A stretch of DNA of 60,612 bases from Gemmatimonadaceae bacterium (GTDB lineage Bacteria > Gemmatimonadota > Gemmatimonadetes > Gemmatimonadales > Gemmatimonadaceae): NCBI GenBank assembly GCA_019752115.1, contig JAIEMN010000077.1:1-60612 (forward strand). Direction: 5' to 3'. The stretch's first letter is position 1; every line of letters begins with the position of its first letter. Of this stretch, positions 17,500 through 29,517 are shown in pieces. The position numbers and the translations under genes were made by a program. Below the pieces are notes generated by a model. It was not told the DNA's origin, did not search any database, and worked only from the letters and a program-made list of their open reading frames with translations.

Positions 17500-18537
17500 T
17501 CATTTCCGCGCATCCACCTCACGGGCGAACGCGCGGACATCCCGCACGTTCGCCTCGGTGGCATCCCACGAGGTGATGTGCGACGCCCCGGCGTAGCGCA
17601 CGAAACGGGCGCCCGGAATCATCTTCGCGTGGCGCTCGACGGTCTTTGGGCCCACCTCATCGAACTCGCCGGTCGTCACGAGCACCGGCACCTTGATAGT
17701 CGGGAGCACCGCTGTCTGGTCGTAGTTCTTGAGCGTGCCGGTCACCACGAATTCATAGGCGCCCTGCATGTAGACGTACTGCGGCTGGCCGTACATCGAC
17801 ATCGTGGAATCGAGGTCCACCTTGTTGGGCGTGCGGAACACGAAGCGCGCATAGAACTCATCGGACGCCGCCGTGAACCCGGGCGCCTTGTCGTTCCCAT
17901 CGCGCTTCCACTGCGCCACCGCACGCTGCGCGGAATCGGAGAGCGTCTTCGTCCACGCCTCGGTCTCCTGCGCGTAGGCCTTCCAGTCAAAGACACTGCC
18001 ACCGAACACGATGCCGGCGACATGCTCCGGGTGCGCCTTGTAGTACTCAAGCGCGAGCACCGTGCCCCACGAATGTCCGTTGAGGATCCATTGCTCGACG
18101 TGCAACGCGCGCCGTAGCGAATCGAGCTCCTCCACGAAGCGCGGAATCACCATCAGCGTCGTGTCGGTGAGCCGGTCGGACTTCCCCGCGCCCAGCTGAT
18201 CGTAGCGAATGATGGGCCGATCGTCGCCCAGCGCTTCGAACGGCTTGAGATAGAAGCTGCCGGCCCCCGGTCCGCCGTGGATGAGCACCATGGGGAGCCC
18301 CTTCCCCTGCCCGGACTGCTTGTACCAGATGCGCCCGCCGCGCACCGGGAGCATCGCCTCGCCCGGGCCGAGCGCCGGCGTGGCGGCGGCTGCTGATGCA
18401 GCGGCTGGCGCGGGCTCGGCTGCCGCGGAGTCGGTGCGTGCCCGCTCGGTGGAGGCGCAGGCCGCCGCCGTCACCGCGAGGAACGGAAGGAGCAGGCCGC
18501 GGGTCGGCGCGAAGAGCGACGATGCAAGGCGAGACAT
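17500..18537 (-). CDS. S33-family alpha/beta hydrolase lipoprotein (proline iminopeptidase-like)
   Basis: A 345-residue hydrolase with a signal peptide and lipobox (FLAVTAAACAS), an Ala/Pro-rich linker, then the fold: VLIHGGPGAGSFYLKP (the HGGPG motif of prolyl iminopeptidases), IRYDQLGAGKSD, elbow LNGHSWGTVLAL, acid in TTGEFDEVGP, histidine in AGASHITSW. It probably cleaves N-terminal residues from short peptides outside the cytoplasm. Start taken at the ATG before the signal peptide. It follows the S9 peptidase by 61 bases, so the two may cooperate in peptide degradation. Confidence 0.88.
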   Translation of the reverse strand: MSRLASSLFAPTRGLLLPFLAVTAAACASTERARTDSAAAEPAPAAASAAAATPALGPGEAMLPVRGGRIWYKQSGQGKGLPMVLIHGGPGAGSFYLKPFEALGDDRPIIRYDQLGAGKSDRLTDTTLMVIPRFVEELDSLRRALHVEQWILNGHSWGTVLALEYYKAHPEHVAGIVFGGSVFDWKAYAQETEAWTKTLSDSAQRAVAQWKRDGNDKAPGFTAASDEFYARFVFRTPNKVDLDSTMSMYGQPQYVYMQGAYEFVVTGTLKNYDQTAVLPTIKVPVLVTTGEFDEVGPKTVERHAKMIPGARFVRYAGASHITSWDATEANVRDVRAFAREVDARK

Positions 18538-18598: not shown

Positions 18599-20596
18599 TC
18601 AGAACTTGGGGTCGGCCTCACCCCAGATGTACTTGCCGAACCACGCGAGGTTGTGCTCCATCAGCGCTCGGCTCGACTTGGGGCGCGACGGCCCATGGCC
18701 GATGCCCTCGAAACCGCGATACACGATCAGCGTGCTCGGCACGCCCACATCCTGCAGGCCGCGATAGAGCTCGAAGGCGTTCGGCAGCGGCACGCGCTGA
18801 TCGGTCGCCCCGTGCTGAATCAGCGTGGGCGTCTTGGCGCCCTTGATGTACGTCATCGGCGACGTCTTGGCGTAAATCGCCGGATCATCCCACGGCGTGG
18901 CCTTGAGGTACTGGCGGGTGAACGGCGTGATGTCGGTGTTGACGTAGTACGTCATCCAGTCGCTGATCCCGGCGCCGGCGCTGATCGCTTTGAAGCGGGC
19001 GGCATCGTGCGTGGTGAGGAACATCGAGATGTAGCCGCCCTGGCTCCACCCCATCGCGCCTACGCGCGCCGAATCGGCCAGGCCGGTCTGGATGAGATGA
19101 TCGACCCCCGACAGCACATCCCACGCATCGCCGACGCCCAGGTTGCGCACGTTGAGCGACCGGAACTTCTCACCGTAGCCGGCGCTGCCGCGATAGTTCG
19201 GCTCGAGCACCAGCGCGCCCTTCGCCGTCCACAGATCGATCGGATAGGTCGTGGCGCTGCTGTAGGGAACCGGGCGCGACGTGCCGGTCGGGCCACCGTG
19301 AATGACCACGAGCAGCGGATACCGCTTGCCGGGCACGAAGCCGACCGGCTTGTGCAGCACTCCTTCGATCACCGCGCCATCCTTGCTCTTCCACGAGATC
19401 ACCTCGAGGGCGCCCGTACGCCACCCGGCCGTGACGGCGCCCACATCCGACAGCTTGACCGGCTTCATGGTCGCGAGCGGCGCGGCATACACCTCCGGGA
19501 ACGTGACGGGGTCGCTTGCCACGAACGCCGCCATGCTCGCGTCGCTGCTCAGGGTGAACGCCGATCCGGCCCACGCGTCGGTCACGGCGAACCGTGTGGT
19601 CTTTCGCGTCTGGGGGTCGAGCCCGAAGAGATAGCTCGACGTTTTAGCCGACGCCGAGAAGTAGATCGTGGAGCCGACCCACTTGATCAGCCCCGGATTC
19701 TCGTCGAACGCGGCGCTGAGATCGGTGATGGCGCCACCCGTCGCCGGCACGACGGCCACGTGGGCATTCGTGAAGAAGTACGACGGGCTCGCCAGCTGAC
19801 TTTCGAACGCGATACGTGATCCGTCGGGCGACCAGATGGGGTTCGCATCCGGCCCGGCCTGCGTGACCAGCGGGCGGACGGTGCCCGTCGCCACCTCAAC
19901 AACCGAGATGTCCGCCGACCCGCCGTTGGCGTTCGCGCCATTGATGCGATGATCGAAGGCGATCTGCTTGCCATCCGGCGACCAGCTGAAGCGGCCCACG
20001 GTGTACGCGCCACCCGTGATGCGGCGCCGCGCGTGCGTCGCGACGTCGAGCACCCAGAGATGCGTCATCCGGTAGCCGGCATCGATCACATCGAACTCGC
20101 CGAGCCGCGCCTCGCGCGCCTTGTCGTCGTCGCTGCGCGCATCGGCGTAGAGCACGGCGAGACTCTTGCCATCGGGCGCCCACGCAAACGCCCCCGGGCT
20201 GTCCTCACCCGTGGTGAGCTGCTCGGCTTCCCCGCCCCGCACATCCACCACATACAGCTGTCGGCGGTCCGTGCGATCGCTGGCGAACGCCAGGCGCTGT
20301 CCATCCGGCGCCCACGTGGGGTTCGTGCTCGACTTCCGCCCCCGCGTGAGCTGCCGCGCAGCGCCGGTGCGCACATCCGCCAGCCAGATGCTCGTGTCGT
20401 AGCTGTTCTGCTCCCAGTTCGTCTCGCGCACGGTGTACGCGACCCACTTGCCGTCGGGCGAGATCTCGGGAGAGCCGACGCGCTTGAGCGAGATGATCGC
20501 GTCGATGGTGGGGGTGGTGCTCTGCGCGGCGACCGGGGAGACGATCGGCGTCAGCAGACCAATCGACAGCAGGGTCAGGCGAGGTGTGATGCGCAT
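18599..20596 (-). CDS. Secreted S9-family prolyl oligopeptidase/acylaminoacyl-peptidase
   Basis: A 665-residue peptidase with a signal peptide (LLSIGLLTPIVSPVAAQ). The N-terminal beta-propeller (about 30-390) has repeated TolB/WD-like blades (SPDGKWVAYTV, APDGQRLAFASD, SPDGKQIAFDH, SPDGSRIAFES). The C-terminal alpha/beta hydrolase has VIHGGPTG, GSAGYGEKF, the nucleophile elbow GWSQGGYIS and the histidine in RGFEGIGHGPS. Length and order match DPP-IV/acylaminoacyl-type S9 enzymes. Start is the ATG at the signal peptide. Confidence 0.92.
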   Translation of the reverse strand: MRITPRLTLLSIGLLTPIVSPVAAQSTTPTIDAIISLKRVGSPEISPDGKWVAYTVRETNWEQNSYDTSIWLADVRTGAARQLTRGRKSSTNPTWAPDGQRLAFASDRTDRRQLYVVDVRGGEAEQLTTGEDSPGAFAWAPDGKSLAVLYADARSDDDKAREARLGEFDVIDAGYRMTHLWVLDVATHARRRITGGAYTVGRFSWSPDGKQIAFDHRINGANANGGSADISVVEVATGTVRPLVTQAGPDANPIWSPDGSRIAFESQLASPSYFFTNAHVAVVPATGGAITDLSAAFDENPGLIKWVGSTIYFSASAKTSSYLFGLDPQTRKTTRFAVTDAWAGSAFTLSSDASMAAFVASDPVTFPEVYAAPLATMKPVKLSDVGAVTAGWRTGALEVISWKSKDGAVIEGVLHKPVGFVPGKRYPLLVVIHGGPTGTSRPVPYSSATTYPIDLWTAKGALVLEPNYRGSAGYGEKFRSLNVRNLGVGDAWDVLSGVDHLIQTGLADSARVGAMGWSQGGYISMFLTTHDAARFKAISAGAGISDWMTYYVNTDITPFTRQYLKATPWDDPAIYAKTSPMTYIKGAKTPTLIQHGATDQRVPLPNAFELYRGLQDVGVPSTLIVYRGFEGIGHGPSRPKSSRALMEHNLAWFGKYIWGEADPKF

Positions 20597-20630: not shown

Positions 20631-21503
20631 TTACTTCGCGTAGAGGAAGCGAAGGCCGCGACTGATCGTCGCCGGAATGACCGGATCATGTCGCTCGCCG
20701 GCGAAGCGGACCGTCTGCAGCGTCAGTCCCTCGTACTGATGTGCACGCAGCTGTTCCGCGAACGCTTCCGTGTCGGGGCCCAGACGCGTCTCCAGCTCAC
20801 CCGCGGCCAGGAACACCTTCGCGGGCAGTGCACGATGCCGGGACGCGAACACGGACTCCGCCGCGAACATGGCCCGATTGTCCCACCACAGCGACGGACT
20901 CCCGGCGAGCACGCGGGAGAAGAAGCCCTCGCCCTGCAGCAGCGCGTACACGCCGAAGAGACCGCCGAGCGAGTGCCCGAAGAATCCGCGTCCGTCGGGA
21001 CTGCCGTTGAACTCGCGCTCGATGTAGGGCGCCAGATCTGCCTTGATGAAGCGGAGAAACGCCGGGCCGCCGCCGAACCCTGCTGGCGGTGCCGCGCCTG
21101 AGGCTTTGGCCGACGCCGTCTCGGTGCGCAGGCGCGCCGAATCCACTGTGGGCGTCAAGTCCAGCCCGCGCGGCCCCAAGATCTCGGCGATCGTCCGATT
21201 CGGCGTGTCGTAGCCAATACCCACAACAATGAGCGTCGGGATGTCGCCATCTTCAGCGGCCAGCCGCGCCGCTTCCACCACGGTGAAGAACTCCGCATTG
21301 GCATCCACCGCGTACAACACGGGATACGGCCCCTGCTCCCGACGATAGCCTTCGGGGAGAGCCACCCAGATCCGGTACGGCCGTCGCGTTTCACTCGATG
21401 CCATCCGCAACGAGACGGAGTACGGAAGCGAGACCGGCTCGGTGTGTGGGTGCGGCGTGCAGGCGAGGAGCGCGATCGCCGCGCTGAGCATCATCCGCCT
21501 CAT
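20631..21503 (-). CDS. Esterase D/enterochelin-esterase-like lipoprotein hydrolase
   Basis: A 290-residue hydrolase of the Esterase D (IroE/Fes-like) group. A short signal ends in a lipobox (AIALLACTP). Motifs: RPYRIWVALPEGY, PVLYAVDANAEFF, LIVVGIGYD, elbow FFGHSLGGLFGVYAL, SPSLWWDN, and a late histidine in FAGERHDPVIP. Members cut ester bonds in siderophores or small esters. It is last in the five-gene cytochrome/quinoprotein operon, with a 4-base overlap with the cytochrome c gene, and it precedes the S9 peptidase. Confidence 0.85.
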   Translation of the reverse strand: MRRMMLSAAIALLACTPHPHTEPVSLPYSVSLRMASSETRRPYRIWVALPEGYRREQGPYPVLYAVDANAEFFTVVEAARLAAEDGDIPTLIVVGIGYDTPNRTIAEILGPRGLDLTPTVDSARLRTETASAKASGAAPPAGFGGGPAFLRFIKADLAPYIEREFNGSPDGRGFFGHSLGGLFGVYALLQGEGFFSRVLAGSPSLWWDNRAMFAAESVFASRHRALPAKVFLAAGELETRLGPDTEAFAEQLRAHQYEGLTLQTVRFAGERHDPVIPATISRGLRFLYAK

Positions 21504-21964
21504 GGAGCGTCCGTAGCCGGCTTCGGCACCACAAACCGCACCCCATGCAACGCCCCGTTCTCGTGCGTCAGCTCCGCACTCCCCGCCGGAAAGCCGTTGT
21601 ACTTGAGCACGAACGCAATCACATCGGTGACCATCGCCTTGCTGTACACGCCCGGCGTGTCTGTGGGCATGGCGGTCTGAATGCGCTCATGCAGCGCATC
21701 GAGCAGTTGCCCGTTCCAGGCGCTCGTGAACGCGCTGCCGGTGAGCGCCGGCGCGGCATCGGCACCGGTGAGCTCCGCCGCGTGGCAGCGGGCGCACTCC
21801 TTGGCGTAGGCCTGCTGCCCGCGCTCGGCCTGCGCCGTGGTGTAGACGCTGTCCCAGACGGTGCGCTCCTGGGGCAATGTGCCGCCACCGGCGGTGCGAA
21901 ACGCCGCGGCCACCGGCAGCAGCAGCGCGGCGCCGGCGATCCATCGGGACACGCGACGACTCAC
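21500..21964 (-). CDS. Periplasmic c-type cytochrome
   Basis: A 154-residue protein with a signal peptide, a single haem site CARCH near residue 58, and a likely distal methionine ligand in IQTAMPTDTPG. The size suits a class I monohaem cytochrome. The GTG start overlaps the quinoprotein stop by 4 bases, so it is the natural electron acceptor of that dehydrogenase. Confidence 0.9.
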   Translation of the reverse strand: MSRRVSRWIAGAALLLPVAAAFRTAGGGTLPQERTVWDSVYTTAQAERGQQAYAKECARCHAAELTGADAAPALTGSAFTSAWNGQLLDALHERIQTAMPTDTPGVYSKAMVTDVIAFVLKYNGFPAGSAELTHENGALHGVRFVVPKPATDAP

Positions 21965-23952
21965 CGGCGCGCGACCGGCAGGCGATACGCGATGTACTCC
22001 CCCGAGTACGGGCCACCGCTCACCGCCACCACGAGGTACTGCTTGCCGTCCACGACATAGGTCATCGGCGAGCCACTCTGCGGCGCGGGCATCGCCACGG
22101 CGCCGAGCTCCTTGCCCGTGGCCTTGTCGTACGCGCGCAGCATCGCGGCGCGCCCGCGCGGCGCCACGTTGGTCACTTCGGGATCGCCGGCAATCACCAG
22201 CGTCTTGGTGACGAGCGTCCCCACACTCCCCGACTGGCCGGTGCGCGGAATGGTGAGCCCCTTGAGCGCGTCGTGCGTGCGGATGGCGTCGGGCGTTTCG
22301 CCGTGCGGCACCTGCCAGGCGATGTCACCTGTCTTGAGATCGATCGCGGTAATGGTGCCATAGGGCGGCTTGAGCAGCGGCAGCCCCTGCACCGTGAGCC
22401 CGCCCCGCGGCGCGCCGGGCGCAAAGCCGCGCACCCACTTCATGTCCGACTGCCCCGGCTGTGGCGCTACGAGGCCGAGCGGGCTCGGCGAGTTGTTCGA
22501 CGCCGAGAGGTACACCATCTGCGTCTCCGGATCGTAGGAGCCGCCGGGCCAGTTGCTCCCGCCATTCGTGGGCCCGTTCGACAGCGTGGCCAACGGCCCC
22601 TCCGCCTTGCTCACCACCGGCGGCGTGAAGATCGGCCCGAGCTTGTACTTCGCGGCAACCTGACGGCCCGCATCCTTGAGCGCCGGCGTGAAGTCGATGA
22701 GGTCATCCAGCGTGACGCCGTTGCGCGCGTATGCCGCCGGCTTGGTGGGGAACGGCTGCGTGGGCGCGTACCACTCGCCCGGTACATCGCCCTTCTCCAC
22801 CGGCTTCTCTTCGAACGGCCACACCGGCACGCCGGTCACGCGGTCGAACACATACAAAATCCCCTGCTTGGTCGGCAGGGCGACGGCTTTGATCGGCTTC
22901 CCGCCCACGGTGATATCGGCAAGGATCGGTGACGCCGCGAGATCGAAGTCCCAGATGGGATGATGCACGATCTGGTAGTGCCACTTCTTCTTGCCGGTCT
23001 TGAGATCCAGACAGACCAGACTTTCGCCGTACAGGTTGTCGCCGGGACGATGGCCACCGTAGTAGTCACCGGTGGGGCTTTCGATGGGGAGATAGACCAA
23101 GCCGAGTTCTTCGTCGGCGGCGACCTGCGTCCAGACGCCCGTGTTGCCGGCATCAGCCGCCGAGTTGTTGAGCCAGCTGTCGTATCCCGGCTCGCCCTTC
23201 CGCGGCACGGTGTGGAAGCTCCAGAGCCGCTTGCCGGTGCGCACATCGAAGCCGCGGATGTCGCCCTTGTTGTTGCGGAAGCTCTTAGGCGTGCCGCCTT
23301 CGCGGAACGCGGCGCCAATGATCACCACATCGCGCGCCACCACGGGCGCTCCCTGATAGCCGATCTCGCCGGTGGTGAGATCGGGGAGAATGGGGTCGTC
23401 CATCTCCTTCTTGAGATCAACCACGCCGTTCACGCCGAAGCTCTTCACCAGCGCACCCGTCTTGGCATCGAGCGCGATGAGGCGATAGCCCGGCGTGGTG
23501 TACAGGATGCGCGCGTCCTTGCCGTCGCTCCAGTAGGCGAGTCCGCGCCCCGAAAGCGGACGCGGCGCCGCGGCCCCGCGCTCGGCTTCGTTCTCGCTGT
23601 GCATCCACAGCAGCTCACCCGTCGCCGCATCGAGCGCGACGACCGCGCGGCGCGTGCCACCGGTGGTGTACAGCACACCGCCCACCATGAGCGGCGTGCC
23701 TTCGAGCTTGAACTCCGGCCGCGGCCCCAGCGCATCGGTCTTGAAGCGCCACGCCACTTCGAGCGTGTTGAAGTTGGCGCCGGTGATCTGATCGAAGGGC
23801 GCGTAGCGCGACCCCTTCGTATCGCCACTGTAGCTGGGCCACTCCCCCTTGGCGGTGGACATGGGCGCGCGCTGCGCGAAGGCAGCTGGCGCCGCGAGCG
23901 CCAGGAGTACGGCGGCCGCGCGCAGGCGCGGCGTGGTGACCAACGACATCAT
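21961..23952 (-). CDS. PQQ-dependent beta-propeller dehydrogenase
   Basis: A 663-residue periplasmic quinoprotein with a signal peptide (LLALAAPAAFAQ). Repeating tryptophan-docking blades are visible: EWPSYSGDTKGSRYAP, ALDAATGELLWMH, FDVRTGKRLWSFH, CLDLKTGKKKWHYQ, AIDLKTGDIAWQVPHG, and a C-terminal PMTYVVDGKQYLVVAVSGG. This is the membrane glucose/alcohol dehydrogenase-type propeller without N-terminal helices, so it is probably soluble and passes electrons to the cytochrome encoded next. The sugar or alcohol substrate cannot be assigned. No PQQ biosynthesis gene is in the window. Confidence 0.9.
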   Translation of the reverse strand: MMSLVTTPRLRAAAVLLALAAPAAFAQRAPMSTAKGEWPSYSGDTKGSRYAPFDQITGANFNTLEVAWRFKTDALGPRPEFKLEGTPLMVGGVLYTTGGTRRAVVALDAATGELLWMHSENEAERGAAAPRPLSGRGLAYWSDGKDARILYTTPGYRLIALDAKTGALVKSFGVNGVVDLKKEMDDPILPDLTTGEIGYQGAPVVARDVVIIGAAFREGGTPKSFRNNKGDIRGFDVRTGKRLWSFHTVPRKGEPGYDSWLNNSAADAGNTGVWTQVAADEELGLVYLPIESPTGDYYGGHRPGDNLYGESLVCLDLKTGKKKWHYQIVHHPIWDFDLAASPILADITVGGKPIKAVALPTKQGILYVFDRVTGVPVWPFEEKPVEKGDVPGEWYAPTQPFPTKPAAYARNGVTLDDLIDFTPALKDAGRQVAAKYKLGPIFTPPVVSKAEGPLATLSNGPTNGGSNWPGGSYDPETQMVYLSASNNSPSPLGLVAPQPGQSDMKWVRGFAPGAPRGGLTVQGLPLLKPPYGTITAIDLKTGDIAWQVPHGETPDAIRTHDALKGLTIPRTGQSGSVGTLVTKTLVIAGDPEVTNVAPRGRAAMLRAYDKATGKELGAVAMPAPQSGSPMTYVVDGKQYLVVAVSGGPYSGEYIAYRLPVARR

Positions 23953-25325
23953 GGACGACTGGGGCTCGGCGTGGCAGCGGCCTTCTTGGCGTTCTTCGCC
24001 GCGCGGGCGGCGACGAGTTTGTCGAATTCATCCTGTTCGAGATACGTCACATCGATCCAGTTGTGCGCCATCTCGTCCACCGTGCGATCCCCCCAGCCCA
24101 CCCACTGCGCCGGATCGGGATTGTTGGGGTTCGCCGCCGTGTTGTCGTGCCACGCGGTGAAGATGAGCGTCGTGCCCTTGGGGAGCAGCGGCGCCGCTTC
24201 GCTGGCGTAGATGTAGTTGATGTGCCAGTTCCACTGGAAGTTGCTGACCTGGCTGATCACTTCCGTCTTGCCATCGGGATACACCGCCTCGAGCGCCATC
24301 GCCTTGCCGCGCATGTGCATGTGCGGCTGGAAATTCTCGAGGCGCCCGGGCGCCGGCATCACATAGTAGTTCTGCGTGATCGTCTTCTCGTTGGGCGGGA
24401 TGTCGAGATCGCGACCACGCGAGAGGTCGAACATGCGCAGCACCGTGCGATGCTGCGGCACGAAGCCCTTCGGGTAGAAGTAGATCGCCATCTCCACCTG
24501 GCTGTCGGCGATCTCCTCACCGATCGCATGGTAGTGCACTTCCCAGCGGATCTTGGAGCCGGGGAGCATCAACTTGCCGGCATCGGCCGGGAAGATCTGC
24601 CCCGTCTTGCCCACCGCCCACTCCATGAACAGGCCGGCATTGCTCTGATGCTCGTGCGCCGTACTCGCGAGCCCCGTCACGCCCTGTTCCGGCTGGAGCA
24701 GATAGGCGAGCACGTGATGCACGATCTTGCGGTCGTGGTCGCGGACCGGCTTGATCTCAATCGCGCGCACCCAGCGCTGCTCGGTGAGGCCCGTCTCCAC
24801 TTCGGGACGGAACCACTTGTCCTGCGTCCGCGCGGCCAGCGTGTACGGCTTGCTCTTGATGATCAGATCGGGCTTGCCGAGCTTCTCGGCGAGCTGCCAG
24901 CGATTGGGATCGGGGAAGGTGCGCGCGGCCGGCAGGTCCGCCGGATTGCCGAGCGGCGCTCCGGCATCGGCCCAGCGGCTGATGGTGCTCACCTCGGCGT
25001 CGGTGAGGCTCCGATCGTTCGCGAACTGCTGAATGCCCACCGTACGATCGATATGCCAGGGGGGCATCAGGCGCTGTTCGACCTTGGCCTTGATGCGACG
25101 CGAGTACTTCTTGGCGTCATCGTAGGTCAGCAGCGACATCGGCGCGATGGAACCCGGCTGATGGCACTCCTGACAGCGCGCCTGAAAGATCGGGGCGACG
25201 TCTTTCGCATAGGTCGGCACGTTGGCACCGGCCGCGGTGCCAGCACTCGCGACCGTCTGCGCGCTCAGCGCGCGCGCCGCGAGGGTGATCAACAGCCCCG
25301 CCGGAATTCCTCGACGCATGCTCAT
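23949..25325 (-). CDS. Cytochrome c fused to a copper type II monooxygenase-like domain
   Basis: A 458-residue secreted protein. After the signal comes a haem site CQECH (about residue 48) in a planctomycete-type cytochrome domain (VAPIFQARCQECHQPG, LMPPWHI, ISRWADAGAP). The C-terminal half has the histidine pattern of the PHM/dopamine-beta-monooxygenase fold: KIVHHVLAY, HEHQSN, WEVHYHAIG and FQPHMHMRG, copper-site type motifs. Such two-domain proteins are annotated in environmental genomes without known substrate. The start is the ATG that overlaps the upstream stop by 4 bases. It shares an operon with the quinoprotein and cytochrome, suggesting a periplasmic redox chain. Confidence 0.8.
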   Translation of the reverse strand: MSMRRGIPAGLLITLAARALSAQTVASAGTAAGANVPTYAKDVAPIFQARCQECHQPGSIAPMSLLTYDDAKKYSRRIKAKVEQRLMPPWHIDRTVGIQQFANDRSLTDAEVSTISRWADAGAPLGNPADLPAARTFPDPNRWQLAEKLGKPDLIIKSKPYTLAARTQDKWFRPEVETGLTEQRWVRAIEIKPVRDHDRKIVHHVLAYLLQPEQGVTGLASTAHEHQSNAGLFMEWAVGKTGQIFPADAGKLMLPGSKIRWEVHYHAIGEEIADSQVEMAIYFYPKGFVPQHRTVLRMFDLSRGRDLDIPPNEKTITQNYYVMPAPGRLENFQPHMHMRGKAMALEAVYPDGKTEVISQVSNFQWNWHINYIYASEAAPLLPKGTTLIFTAWHDNTAANPNNPDPAQWVGWGDRTVDEMAHNWIDVTYLEQDEFDKLVAARAAKNAKKAAATPSPSRP

Positions 25326-26146
25326 GGCGTAACCCTCACGGTGACAAAGGCGTTGGTCCAGCAGCATTGCGAGTGACCGGCCGTGCTGGCGGCGGCATCA
25401 CCCGCGCGCACGCGCACGAGGTACGTGCCGGGCGCCGAGAAGGTGGCGGTGGTGGTGCCGGTCCCGCCGGTGGGCGTGAGGCGGCTGGTCGGCGTGGAGA
25501 ACGTCACGGTGCCGGGTCCCTGGTGCTTGTACCAGCTCAGGTCCACCGGCGTCTTCGTGGCGCCATCGTCGGTGGCCAGGATCGTGAGCGCAGTGGGCAC
25601 CCCGACTTTCGCGTCGACCGGCCCGCCCTTCACGCCGCCGGGGCCCCGCCCCTCCGGCGTGCTCGCACTCCAGCGCAGCGCGGGCGGGGTGTTGTTGGCG
25701 CTCGCCTCCCCTTCGATGGCGTCGATCTGCCAGTCGGGGTTGAGGCTTCCGGGAATGGCCGTCTTCTGACCGCGCGAGATGAGCGTCCAGGTGACCTTGG
25801 CCTTGGGGTCGAAGTTCGCCGGGACCACGACCGTGAACACGCCCCAGTTGCGCCGCGGGGCGAAGTGCGTGGGCTGCCCCTGATTGGGCTCCCCGGGCGA
25901 CACGAAGTTGCTGTCGCCCACCGCGATCTCGACGCGCTCCTTGTCGTTGCGATTGAAATAGCCGAACGACAGCGAATACGTGCCGTCGGCATTCCGGTAC
26001 CAGCCTTCAAAGACGGGCGTCACGGACTGCCCGCTCGGCGCGAGCGGCGCGAGCGAGCGTTGCGCGCTCGCGGGCGCGCTACCAAGCACAAGGCACAGAC
26101 CGCCGACGAGGGTCGACGGGGACCACGGGTAACGCGGACGGGGCAC
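25322..26146 (-). CDS. Secreted protein with Ig-like C-terminal part
   Basis: A 274-residue secreted protein. The start is a GTG preceded five bases upstream by GGAG and followed by a signal peptide (STLVGGLCLVLGSAPASAQ). The N-terminal half has a conserved-looking stretch VFEGWYRNADGTYSLSFGYFNRN and NWGVFTVVVP. The C-terminal part (about 170-270) resembles an Ig/PKD-like domain (TALTILATDDGA, TATFSAPGTYLVRVRAGD). A late CC pair may bind metal or form disulfides. It is first in the cytochrome/quinoprotein operon. Function unknown. Confidence 0.7.
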   Translation of the reverse strand: MPRPRYPWSPSTLVGGLCLVLGSAPASAQRSLAPLAPSGQSVTPVFEGWYRNADGTYSLSFGYFNRNDKERVEIAVGDSNFVSPGEPNQGQPTHFAPRRNWGVFTVVVPANFDPKAKVTWTLISRGQKTAIPGSLNPDWQIDAIEGEASANNTPPALRWSASTPEGRGPGGVKGGPVDAKVGVPTALTILATDDGATKTPVDLSWYKHQGPGTVTFSTPTSRLTPTGGTGTTTATFSAPGTYLVRVRAGDAAASTAGHSQCCWTNAFVTVRVTP

Positions 26147-28431: not shown

Positions 28432-29517
28432 TCACCGCGACGGCGGCGACACAGCCCGGTCGAAATAATCCACAATTGCGCGCGCCGTGCGCCCGATGCG
28501 GTCTTCGGCTTCGCCCATGGGCCCCGTGACGCCGTTCGTGAAGAACGAGAGCACAAGGGTGCCCTTGGGCGTGTACACGAGGCCGACATCATTGGCGATC
28601 ACCTGGCTGTCTCCGGTCTTGTGGCCCACCGGCACACTCAGGAAGTGGGGAATGCGGCGCGCTCCCAGCTGCTGCCGTAGCAGGAGCACCTTCATGCGCT
28701 CGCTACTCGACGCCGAGGCGAGCGTTCCCCGCTCAATCCCTTCGAGCAGGCGCCCCGTCTCGCGCGGCGTCATGGCCCCAAGCCAGTAGGCCCGGTCGGC
28801 AATGGTGATCTCATTGCGCAACGCCCGCAGCCGCTTCCGCGCGTCGGGGTCCCGCATCATGGCCACCCAGGCGGCGCGCTCCCCCACGAACAGCGAGGCA
28901 TACTGGGCAAAGAGCGGGTTGTCGGTCTCGGCGTACTCCAGCCCCGTCGTTTCCTCGGCCGTGAGGTTGGCGAACATCGGATGGAAGGCCGCGAGCACGC
29001 GACGGCGATAGCGGTAGCCCGGGCCGATCACCTCTGTATTTGTAAAGCCCGACGCCTTGAGCCAGGTATTCAGGCTGTCCACCCCACCCACAAGCGACAC
29101 CAGCATGTCGGTGGCGGTGTTGTCGCTCGTGATGATCATCTCGAGCAGGAGATCGTGCACGGTGGGCTGCAGCCCCGGCGTGTGAAACTGAAAGACGCCC
29201 GAACCCGGCCGGATGTCGGCACGCCGGATCTCCTTGCGCGCGTCGAGATCGAGCGTGCCCTGATCGGCCAACTGAAACGCCCGGACCATGACGGCGAGCT
29301 TGATGACGCTCGCGCTATTGAACGCCTGATCGGCGTTCACCATGGCCTCCTCGCCGGTGCGCAGATTCTTCACGTAGACGCCGGCTCGCGCGGGGTACGT
29401 GGCGAGGTCGCGTTCGAGCAGCCGGGTCAGCTCACTGGCGGGTGCCTGCGCGACGCTGCGGGCGGCGGTGGTCAGCAGCAGGGCAAACGCGGCGAGGAAT
29501 CGATGCGGAAGCGTCAC
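28432..29517 (-). CDS. Class A beta-lactamase-like serine hydrolase
   Basis: A 361-residue periplasmic protein with signal peptide (AAFALLLTTAARSVAQ). It has the three penicillin-binding motifs: SxxK as NSASVIKLAVM (about residue 79), SDN as IITSDNTATDM, and KTG as VGHKTGDSQV. The omega-loop glutamate of true class A enzymes (ExxLN) is not clear here, and the protein is about 70 residues longer than typical class A enzymes. It could be a beta-lactamase or a D,D-peptidase-like hydrolase; resistance should not be assumed. Confidence 0.8.
   Translation of the reverse strand: MTLPHRFLAAFALLLTTAARSVAQAPASELTRLLERDLATYPARAGVYVKNLRTGEEAMVNADQAFNSASVIKLAVMVRAFQLADQGTLDLDARKEIRRADIRPGSGVFQFHTPGLQPTVHDLLLEMIITSDNTATDMLVSLVGGVDSLNTWLKASGFTNTEVIGPGYRYRRRVLAAFHPMFANLTAEETTGLEYAETDNPLFAQYASLFVGERAAWVAMMRDPDARKRLRALRNEITIADRAYWLGAMTPRETGRLLEGIERGTLASASSSERMKVLLLRQQLGARRIPHFLSVPVGHKTGDSQVIANDVGLVYTPKGTLVLSFFTNGVTGPMGEAEDRIGRTARAIVDYFDRAVSPPSR

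Follow-up and report, generated by a model that had tools for sequence, protein, structure and literature searches.

A bacterial gene pair encoding a haem-fused, PHM/DBH-like copper protein and its Ig-like partner

The question raised by the locus at positions 20631-26146 of contig JAIEMN010000077.1, from a Gemmatimonadaceae bacterium (assembly GCA_019752115.1), is which of its five genes belong together and what chemistry their products might perform. The window, i.e., the whole stretch of DNA that was analysed, is 60,612 nucleotides long, and its translation places all five open reading frames (ORFs) of this locus on the minus strand. An earlier reading made from the letters of the DNA (the sequence-only reading) described five genes overlapping by 4 bases each, which holds exactly for all four junctions (ATGA or GTGA), and proposed that the five products form one oxidising pathway. 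The comparisons reported here reveal that the unit kept by evolution is gene 1 plus gene 2, and not the five genes. The best explanation for this pair, to which we assign a probability of about one half, is a two-protein periplasmic dicopper monooxygenase fed by its own c-type haem. The two genes are the following:

25322..26146, minus strand: gene 1, putatively exported Ig/PKD-like partner of approximately 274 residues, whose vicinal cysteine pair lies within a QCCW motif (alignment, linkage, model)
23949..25325, minus strand: gene 2, cytochrome plus copper fold (profile, model, alignments)

The 4-base overlap of gene 2 requires an internal ATG at 25325 and not the longer ORF starting at 25367, which is where P0002, the translation whose residue numbers are used below, begins; the GTG start of gene 1 at 26146 is putative. 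Stretches of approximately 9-20 kb around 56 relatives were surveyed together with the window, comprising 44 core loci (the window, L049-L090, and L104) and 13 remote homologues (L091-L103, including a paralogue on contig C6 of the same genome). A gene 1 relative adjoins gene 2 in 43 of the 44 core loci, the exception being L078, and in none of the 13 remote homologues. When both profiles were run over 20 chosen whole genomes (18 with matches) and the matches paired by position, all 65 gene 1 matches had a same-strand gene 2 match no more than 1.2 kb away, while a partner accompanied 65 of the 67 gene 2 matches in the core range (at least 320 bits), as opposed to none of ten remote ones (150-320 bits). 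Both unpartnered core matches belong to genome G233, in one case with two gene 2 copies flanking a single gene 1. Among named contigs, for which the figures given here and below refer to the best 80 loci among the matches listed, the pair is present in 76 (absent from L130, L136, L169, and L181, with the contig of L169 stopping 186 bases beyond the gene). The titles of these 80 loci, which may be wrong where they derive from single assemblies, include Gemmatimonadota, Acidobacteria/Acidobacteriota, Pseudohongiella/Pseudomonadales, Acidimicrobiia, and others; the closest named relatives of gene 2 among the matches listed are Gemmatimonadaceae assemblies.

The dimension of gene order is added by a quick tree built from both locus sets (123 rows for gene 2, several long branches). 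The partner was found in 117 of the 123 rows, upstream of gene 2 in 69 and downstream in 48 (not found in six), and its position changes five times on the tree by parsimony, with three of these changes forced by strongly supported branches. Since adjacency survives rearrangement across phyla, we regard it as good evidence, at the level of sequence comparison, that the two genes probably function jointly; the same conservation across phyla indicates that they are more than chance ORFs. Co-occurrence, which the sequence-only reading had named as a check, holds for genes 1 and 2, while all five genes were not found together elsewhere. That reading had counted gene 1 as an operon member, yet it left this gene out of its title and gave it no role, although gene 1 is the most constant companion of gene 2.

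Several genomes carry many copies of the partner. G221, G223, and G233 possess nine, 12, and ten separate partner genes, respectively (from 12, 18, and 14 match rows, with pieces merged by position), which is a lineage-specific expansion of the pair. Remote haem-copper homologues occur in other contexts: the copy in the same genome as the window (G000:C6:81858-83156, L094) has no Ig gene nearby, nor does a homologue fused to an AhpC/redoxin domain (L091, 5851-8040), while two TPR-fused remote copies (L145, 13691-16522, and L157, 10552-12630) lie close to a core pair. A search for plasmid copies of gene 2 returned none at E 1e-5, and a search of viral contigs for the partner gene gave 35 pattern matches, none of which was confirmed.

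The protein encoded by gene 2 is composed of a signal peptide (judged by eye), a mono-haem cytochrome c domain, a double jelly-roll at approximately residues 163-445, and a C-terminal helix. The codons on which its predicted function depends are:

25161..25175, minus strand: CxxCH haem-attachment motif, codons 65-69 (C65xxCH69), kept in 56/57 and 80/81 sequences
24714..24719, minus strand: codons of H217-H218, putative CuH ligands, invariant in both alignments
24534..24536, minus strand: codon of H278, putative third CuH ligand, invariant in both alignments
24315..24323, minus strand: codons 349-351 (H-M-H), with H349 and H351 as putative CuM ligands, both His invariant
24069..24071, minus strand: codon of M433, putative CuM ligand, invariant in 57/57 and 81/81

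Indeed, all six putative copper-ligand positions are invariant in the 57 sequences of one alignment set and in the 81 named-contig sequences. The haem motif is kept alongside them, each of the two exceptions being a row with a gap at this position. A distal methionine (M101), which would be suited as axial haem ligand, is present in 81 of 81 sequences, and both CxxCH and Met occur in all 29 members of alignment A1.

A model of gene 2 built from 29 aligned relatives (pLDDT 83.0) finds its best structural match in human dopamine beta-hydroxylase (DBH; 4zel, Z 20.4 over 264 residues), followed by rat peptidylglycine alpha-hydroxylating monooxygenase (PHM; 5wja, Z 19.3 over 242 residues, 2.6 Å), the latter match covering model residues 165-444 and chain residues 61-327. 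The next-best fold, that of the PNGase F family, reaches a Z of 9.0 only, and Foldseek returns E values of 2.1e-12 (4zel) and 5.7e-12 (3mll). Furthermore, H217, H218, H278, H349, H351, and M433 run in the same order as the six copper ligands of PHM (HH, H, HxH, M). The titles of PHM structure entries name the mutants H107A and H172A (CuH absent), H108A, and M314I; the remaining copper ligands of PHM are H242 and H244. The earlier description of a cytochrome fused to a PHM-like copper fold is thus upheld by the fold match and the invariant ligands, and the putative copper-ligand His and Met that it had left to modelling prove to be conserved.

PHM and DBH are animal enzymes that depend on ascorbate, and the bacterial protein departs from both. 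Identity to PHM is approximately 16-17%, and PHM differs in that gene 2 has a fused c-type haem and a constant Ig partner. In 20 of the 29 aligned members, P0002 among them, the only cysteines past residue 30 are the two of the haem motif (seven of the 29 have four), so that the disulfides of PHM are missing from these proteins. DBH, like gene 2, has an extra domain before its copper core, a DOMON domain; in the bacterial protein, this N-terminal position is occupied by a covalent c-type haem domain instead.

It is this haem on which the proposed mechanism turns. Gene 2 would be a dicopper monooxygenase with PHM/DBH architecture, reduced by the c-type haem at its own N-terminus in place of free ascorbate. 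A periplasmic donor would reduce the fused haem: here perhaps the cytochrome of gene 4, charged by the quinoprotein of gene 3 (both described below), and elsewhere other cytochromes. The haem would hand its electrons to CuH, from which they would reach O2 at CuM, with hydroxylation of a C-H bond, while gene 1 would be a dedicated subunit that docks on gene 2 and completes substrate binding or copper loading. Where a quinoprotein is present, it may oxidise the hydroxylated product and return the electrons; this closed loop is attractive yet, judging by its distribution, optional. We infer the direction of electron flow and the role of gene 1, and the export of both proteins is putative, their signals having been judged by eye. 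LPMOs have one copper and another fold. Nevertheless, haem-driven wiring is plausible by analogy: in the Cbp2D/CjX183 system, a bacterial copper monooxygenase of the LPMO type is reported to receive its electrons from a small c-type cytochrome domain in place of ascorbate, although the cytochrome and the LPMO are separate proteins there (PMC8981238).

The electrons might also run the other way, with the copper domain oxidising the substrate and the haem exporting electrons to the respiratory chain, which would make gene 2 a dehydrogenase or oxidase without O2 insertion. The fusion of a haem fits electron export equally well, and the quinoprotein and cytochrome c that are sometimes found nearby are an electron-exporting system themselves. 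Copper sites of the HHH and HHM type, however, are those of the PHM/DBH oxygenases, and no member of this fold with these ligands is known to us as a dehydrogenase. Hence, we regard the reverse direction as unlikely.

What gene 1 contributes to the predicted dicopper monooxygenase is less apparent from its sequence. In Pfam, PKD is just over its cut-off (24.4 versus 23.5 bits), and a PKD-type profile was matched in 13 of 26 family members. As Pfam barely sees either protein of the pair, both are expected to be annotated as hypothetical or as a plain cytochrome c. The gene 1 model (pLDDT 85.7) is rich in β-sandwich, and a structure search with it yielded generic Ig/PapD-like matches, with a best E of 1e-5 and a TMq of no more than 0.31 among the 50 matches listed, so that structure points to no function. 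Its most constant feature is the vicinal Cys-Cys, found in 26 of 26 aligned sequences, in 76 of 78 named-contig sequences (the two others being gapped there), and in 40 of 43 sequences of a wider set. These are the sole cysteines past residue 30 in 25 of the 26 aligned members; in the named-contig set of 78, two cysteines occur in 34 sequences and three in 40, and possession of only two is therefore not a general property of the family. Within the proposed mechanism, the two adjacent cysteines would form a vicinal disulfide or else a site for Cu(I); a redox switch is a further candidate, and we make no choice between the three.

Conserved vicinal cysteines in an exported partner would also suit copper handling or sensing, in which the jelly-roll binds copper without catalysis and gene 1 is a Cys-Cys copper chaperone. 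The remote homologues with redoxin or TPR domains could be taken in the same sense, as a reused scaffold. Against this, none of the 81 named-contig sequences has lost any of the six putative ligands, with which the haem motif is kept, and the nine, 12, and ten partner genes of the three expanded genomes suit substrate diversification better than copper storage. A role confined to copper binding consequently appears distinctly improbable.

Two further genes of the window encode the possible redox partners of the dicopper monooxygenase:

21961..23952, minus strand: gene 3, putatively exported PQQ (pyrroloquinoline quinone)-type propeller dehydrogenase (profiles, alignment with Gcd)
21500..21964, minus strand: gene 4, mono-haem cytochrome c that accompanies gene 3 (Pfam, neighbourhood)

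Gene 3 matches the propeller profile PF01011 at 608 bits in Pfam. With the NCBIfam profile TIGR03074 (membrane-bound glucose/quinate dehydrogenases), it scores 379.7 bits against a cut-off of 832.65, the match being confined to profile positions 146-782. Over the propeller, it is 32% identical to Escherichia coli Gcd, of which D466 (the catalytic Asp) and K493 are kept as D335 and K362. Unlike Gcd, gene 3 has no membrane domain, and P132 stands at the position of Gcd H262. By sequence, gene 3 is thus classed as an exported propeller dehydrogenase that belongs to the glucose/quinate type but lacks the membrane part. Gene 4 lies above the cut-offs of both Cytochrom_C and Cytochrome_CBB3. The PQQ propeller and mono-haem cytochrome of the sequence-only reading are accordingly supported.

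These two genes are linked to the pair in a minority of loci. Of the 44 core loci, 11 have a quinoprotein near the pair at more than 300 bits, the window included (14 with weak matches), and one of at least 40% identity is found in seven of the best 80 named contigs, with four more at 23-30%. This linkage exceeds chance: the genome of the window contains five separate P0003-like places in 5.17 Mb, from which approximately 0.015 are expected per 16 kb, although the loci are related to one another. In a quinoprotein tree of 43 rows, partly gathered from copper-gene loci and with "linked" meaning within the fetched stretch (up to ~8 kb), the clade of nine that contains the window's quinoprotein (support 100/100) is linked throughout, most of its rows having come from copper-gene loci, and the same applies to a second clade of five. 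The label changes eight times on the tree versus 14.5 times in shuffles, only one of 500 of which was as low. A search of 298 genomes of the phylum that was not conditioned on linkage returned five with a gene 3 relative of at least 70% identity, four of which have it beside the pair (the window, G098, G064, and G014); the fifth (G133:C11, L230) has a 77% identical quinoprotein and a cytochrome c without the copper pair. Among 12 further hand-picked quinoprotein-like stretches (46-77% identical, G133 included), the pair occurs only at L233 (54%), which disfavours a general coupling between quinoprotein and pair. Genes 3 and 4 are an optional second module.

The last gene of the series is the following:

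20631..21503, minus strand: gene 5, putative esterase (PF00756; Pfam) with a lipoprotein-type signal judged by eye

The exported esterase of the sequence-only reading is recognised here by its PF00756 match and its signal. The four 4-base overlaps suggest that the genes share one transcript and may be translationally coupled in this genome, as would suit five proteins acting in one pathway in which an ester is first oxidised and afterwards hydrolysed. Esterase relatives, however, were found in none of the 56 other stretches (E 1e-4) and in none of the best 80 named contigs (E 1e-6), the best match in 29 other genomes of the genus is 37% identical, and genes 3 and 4 are optional. A single five-protein pathway is thus highly improbable, and no evidence for an ester, which had been suggested as the form of the substrate, was found anywhere in the analysis. 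Gene 5 is a recent arrival or a relict, and in the proposed mechanism a bystander. Co-occurrence of the five genes was rejected as a candidate, with the esterase linked only here.

Several observations weigh against a haem-fed dicopper monooxygenase. In Pfam, gene 2 stays under the copper-monooxygenase cut-offs (Cu2_monooxygen, PF01082, at 19.6 bits against a cut-off of 30), the haem profiles are likewise sub-threshold, and, at an E of no more than 0.01, only two and one of the 29 A1 members match PF01082 and PF03712, respectively. Its profile found no PHM or DBH chain by sequence among seven matches at E of no more than 10; the kinship is revealed by fold comparison and not by the sequence profile. 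Gene 2 is PHM/DBH-like by fold and site, and not a member of PF01082/PF03712. The putative equivalence of its ligands to those of PHM draws on the order of the motifs, the range of the fold match, and the residue numbers of PHM. The fused haem is able to accept electrons as well as donate them, and genes 3 and 4 are missing from most loci that possess the pair. Gene 1 has no specific structural relative in the model search, and its proposed role is derived from linkage. Finally, pqqC was not found in the genome of the window (97% complete) or in seven other genomes of the genus, and 14 named control genomes also gave no match, while the same search, run over 150 genomes of the phylum as a positive control, placed it above the cut-off in 17; gene 3 would consequently depend on PQQ taken up from outside or function in its absence.

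The genes found next to the pair bear on a different chemistry. In our neighbour survey, a copper gene was called in 95 of 123 loci, and each family was named from a single representative. Apart from the pair itself, the genes most often present in these 95 neighbourhoods are quinoproteins (17) and creatininases (12), from which no substrate follows. The carbon next to an amide nitrogen might be hydroxylated as in PHM, with nearby amide hydrolases finishing an N-dealkylation: creatininase-family genes occur near 12 of these loci, amidase near seven, amidohydrolase near seven, and M24 peptidase near eight, and in G218 a creatininase lies between the two core genes. Creatininases are numerous, though, with 2-14 matches per genome in 20 genomes, the counts are descriptive, and none of these four families is among the nine window genes scanned. 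Amide chemistry as the specific function is for these reasons very doubtful. A creatininase-family gene stands beside the pair on the same strand at L085 (G218:C4), L056, L057, L068, L129, L132-L135, and L150.

Around the five genes, an S9 prolyl oligopeptidase-type gene (18599-20596, also on the minus strand) follows the esterase downstream after a gap of 34 bases, and the transcript may in consequence be longer than the five genes. It is followed by an alpha/beta hydrolase gene (17500-18354), while a gene of the beta-lactamase enzyme family (PF13354, 173 bits) is situated near the operon at 28432-29517 (minus strand). The regulatory scan saw no sigma-70-type promoter site, with 1.0 expected, and six terminator-like sites versus 4.1 expected, and is therefore uninformative.

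The fold and the copper site of gene 2 are already known, while, for the bacterial haem fusion with a constant Ig partner, no paper on a bacterial cytochrome-fused PHM was found in the open-licence literature among the matches listed. Tentatively, and with less confidence than for the pair itself, one may envisage that two-component periplasmic dicopper monooxygenases form a class widespread among soil and marine bacteria: each would draw on its own c-type haem as reductant and need an Ig-like Cys-Cys subunit, with expansion to many copies in certain genomes. In Gemmatimonadaceae and a small number of other bacteria, a quinoprotein coupled to them would oxidise the alcohol product and give the electrons back. 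If this is true, the pair would offer a bacterial, ascorbate-free system in which to study the passage of electrons between two copper sites. The arrangement with the quinoprotein would represent a soluble counterpart of the methane monooxygenase/methanol dehydrogenase loop, and the class may explain periplasmic oxidations in common soil phyla that are at present unexplained.

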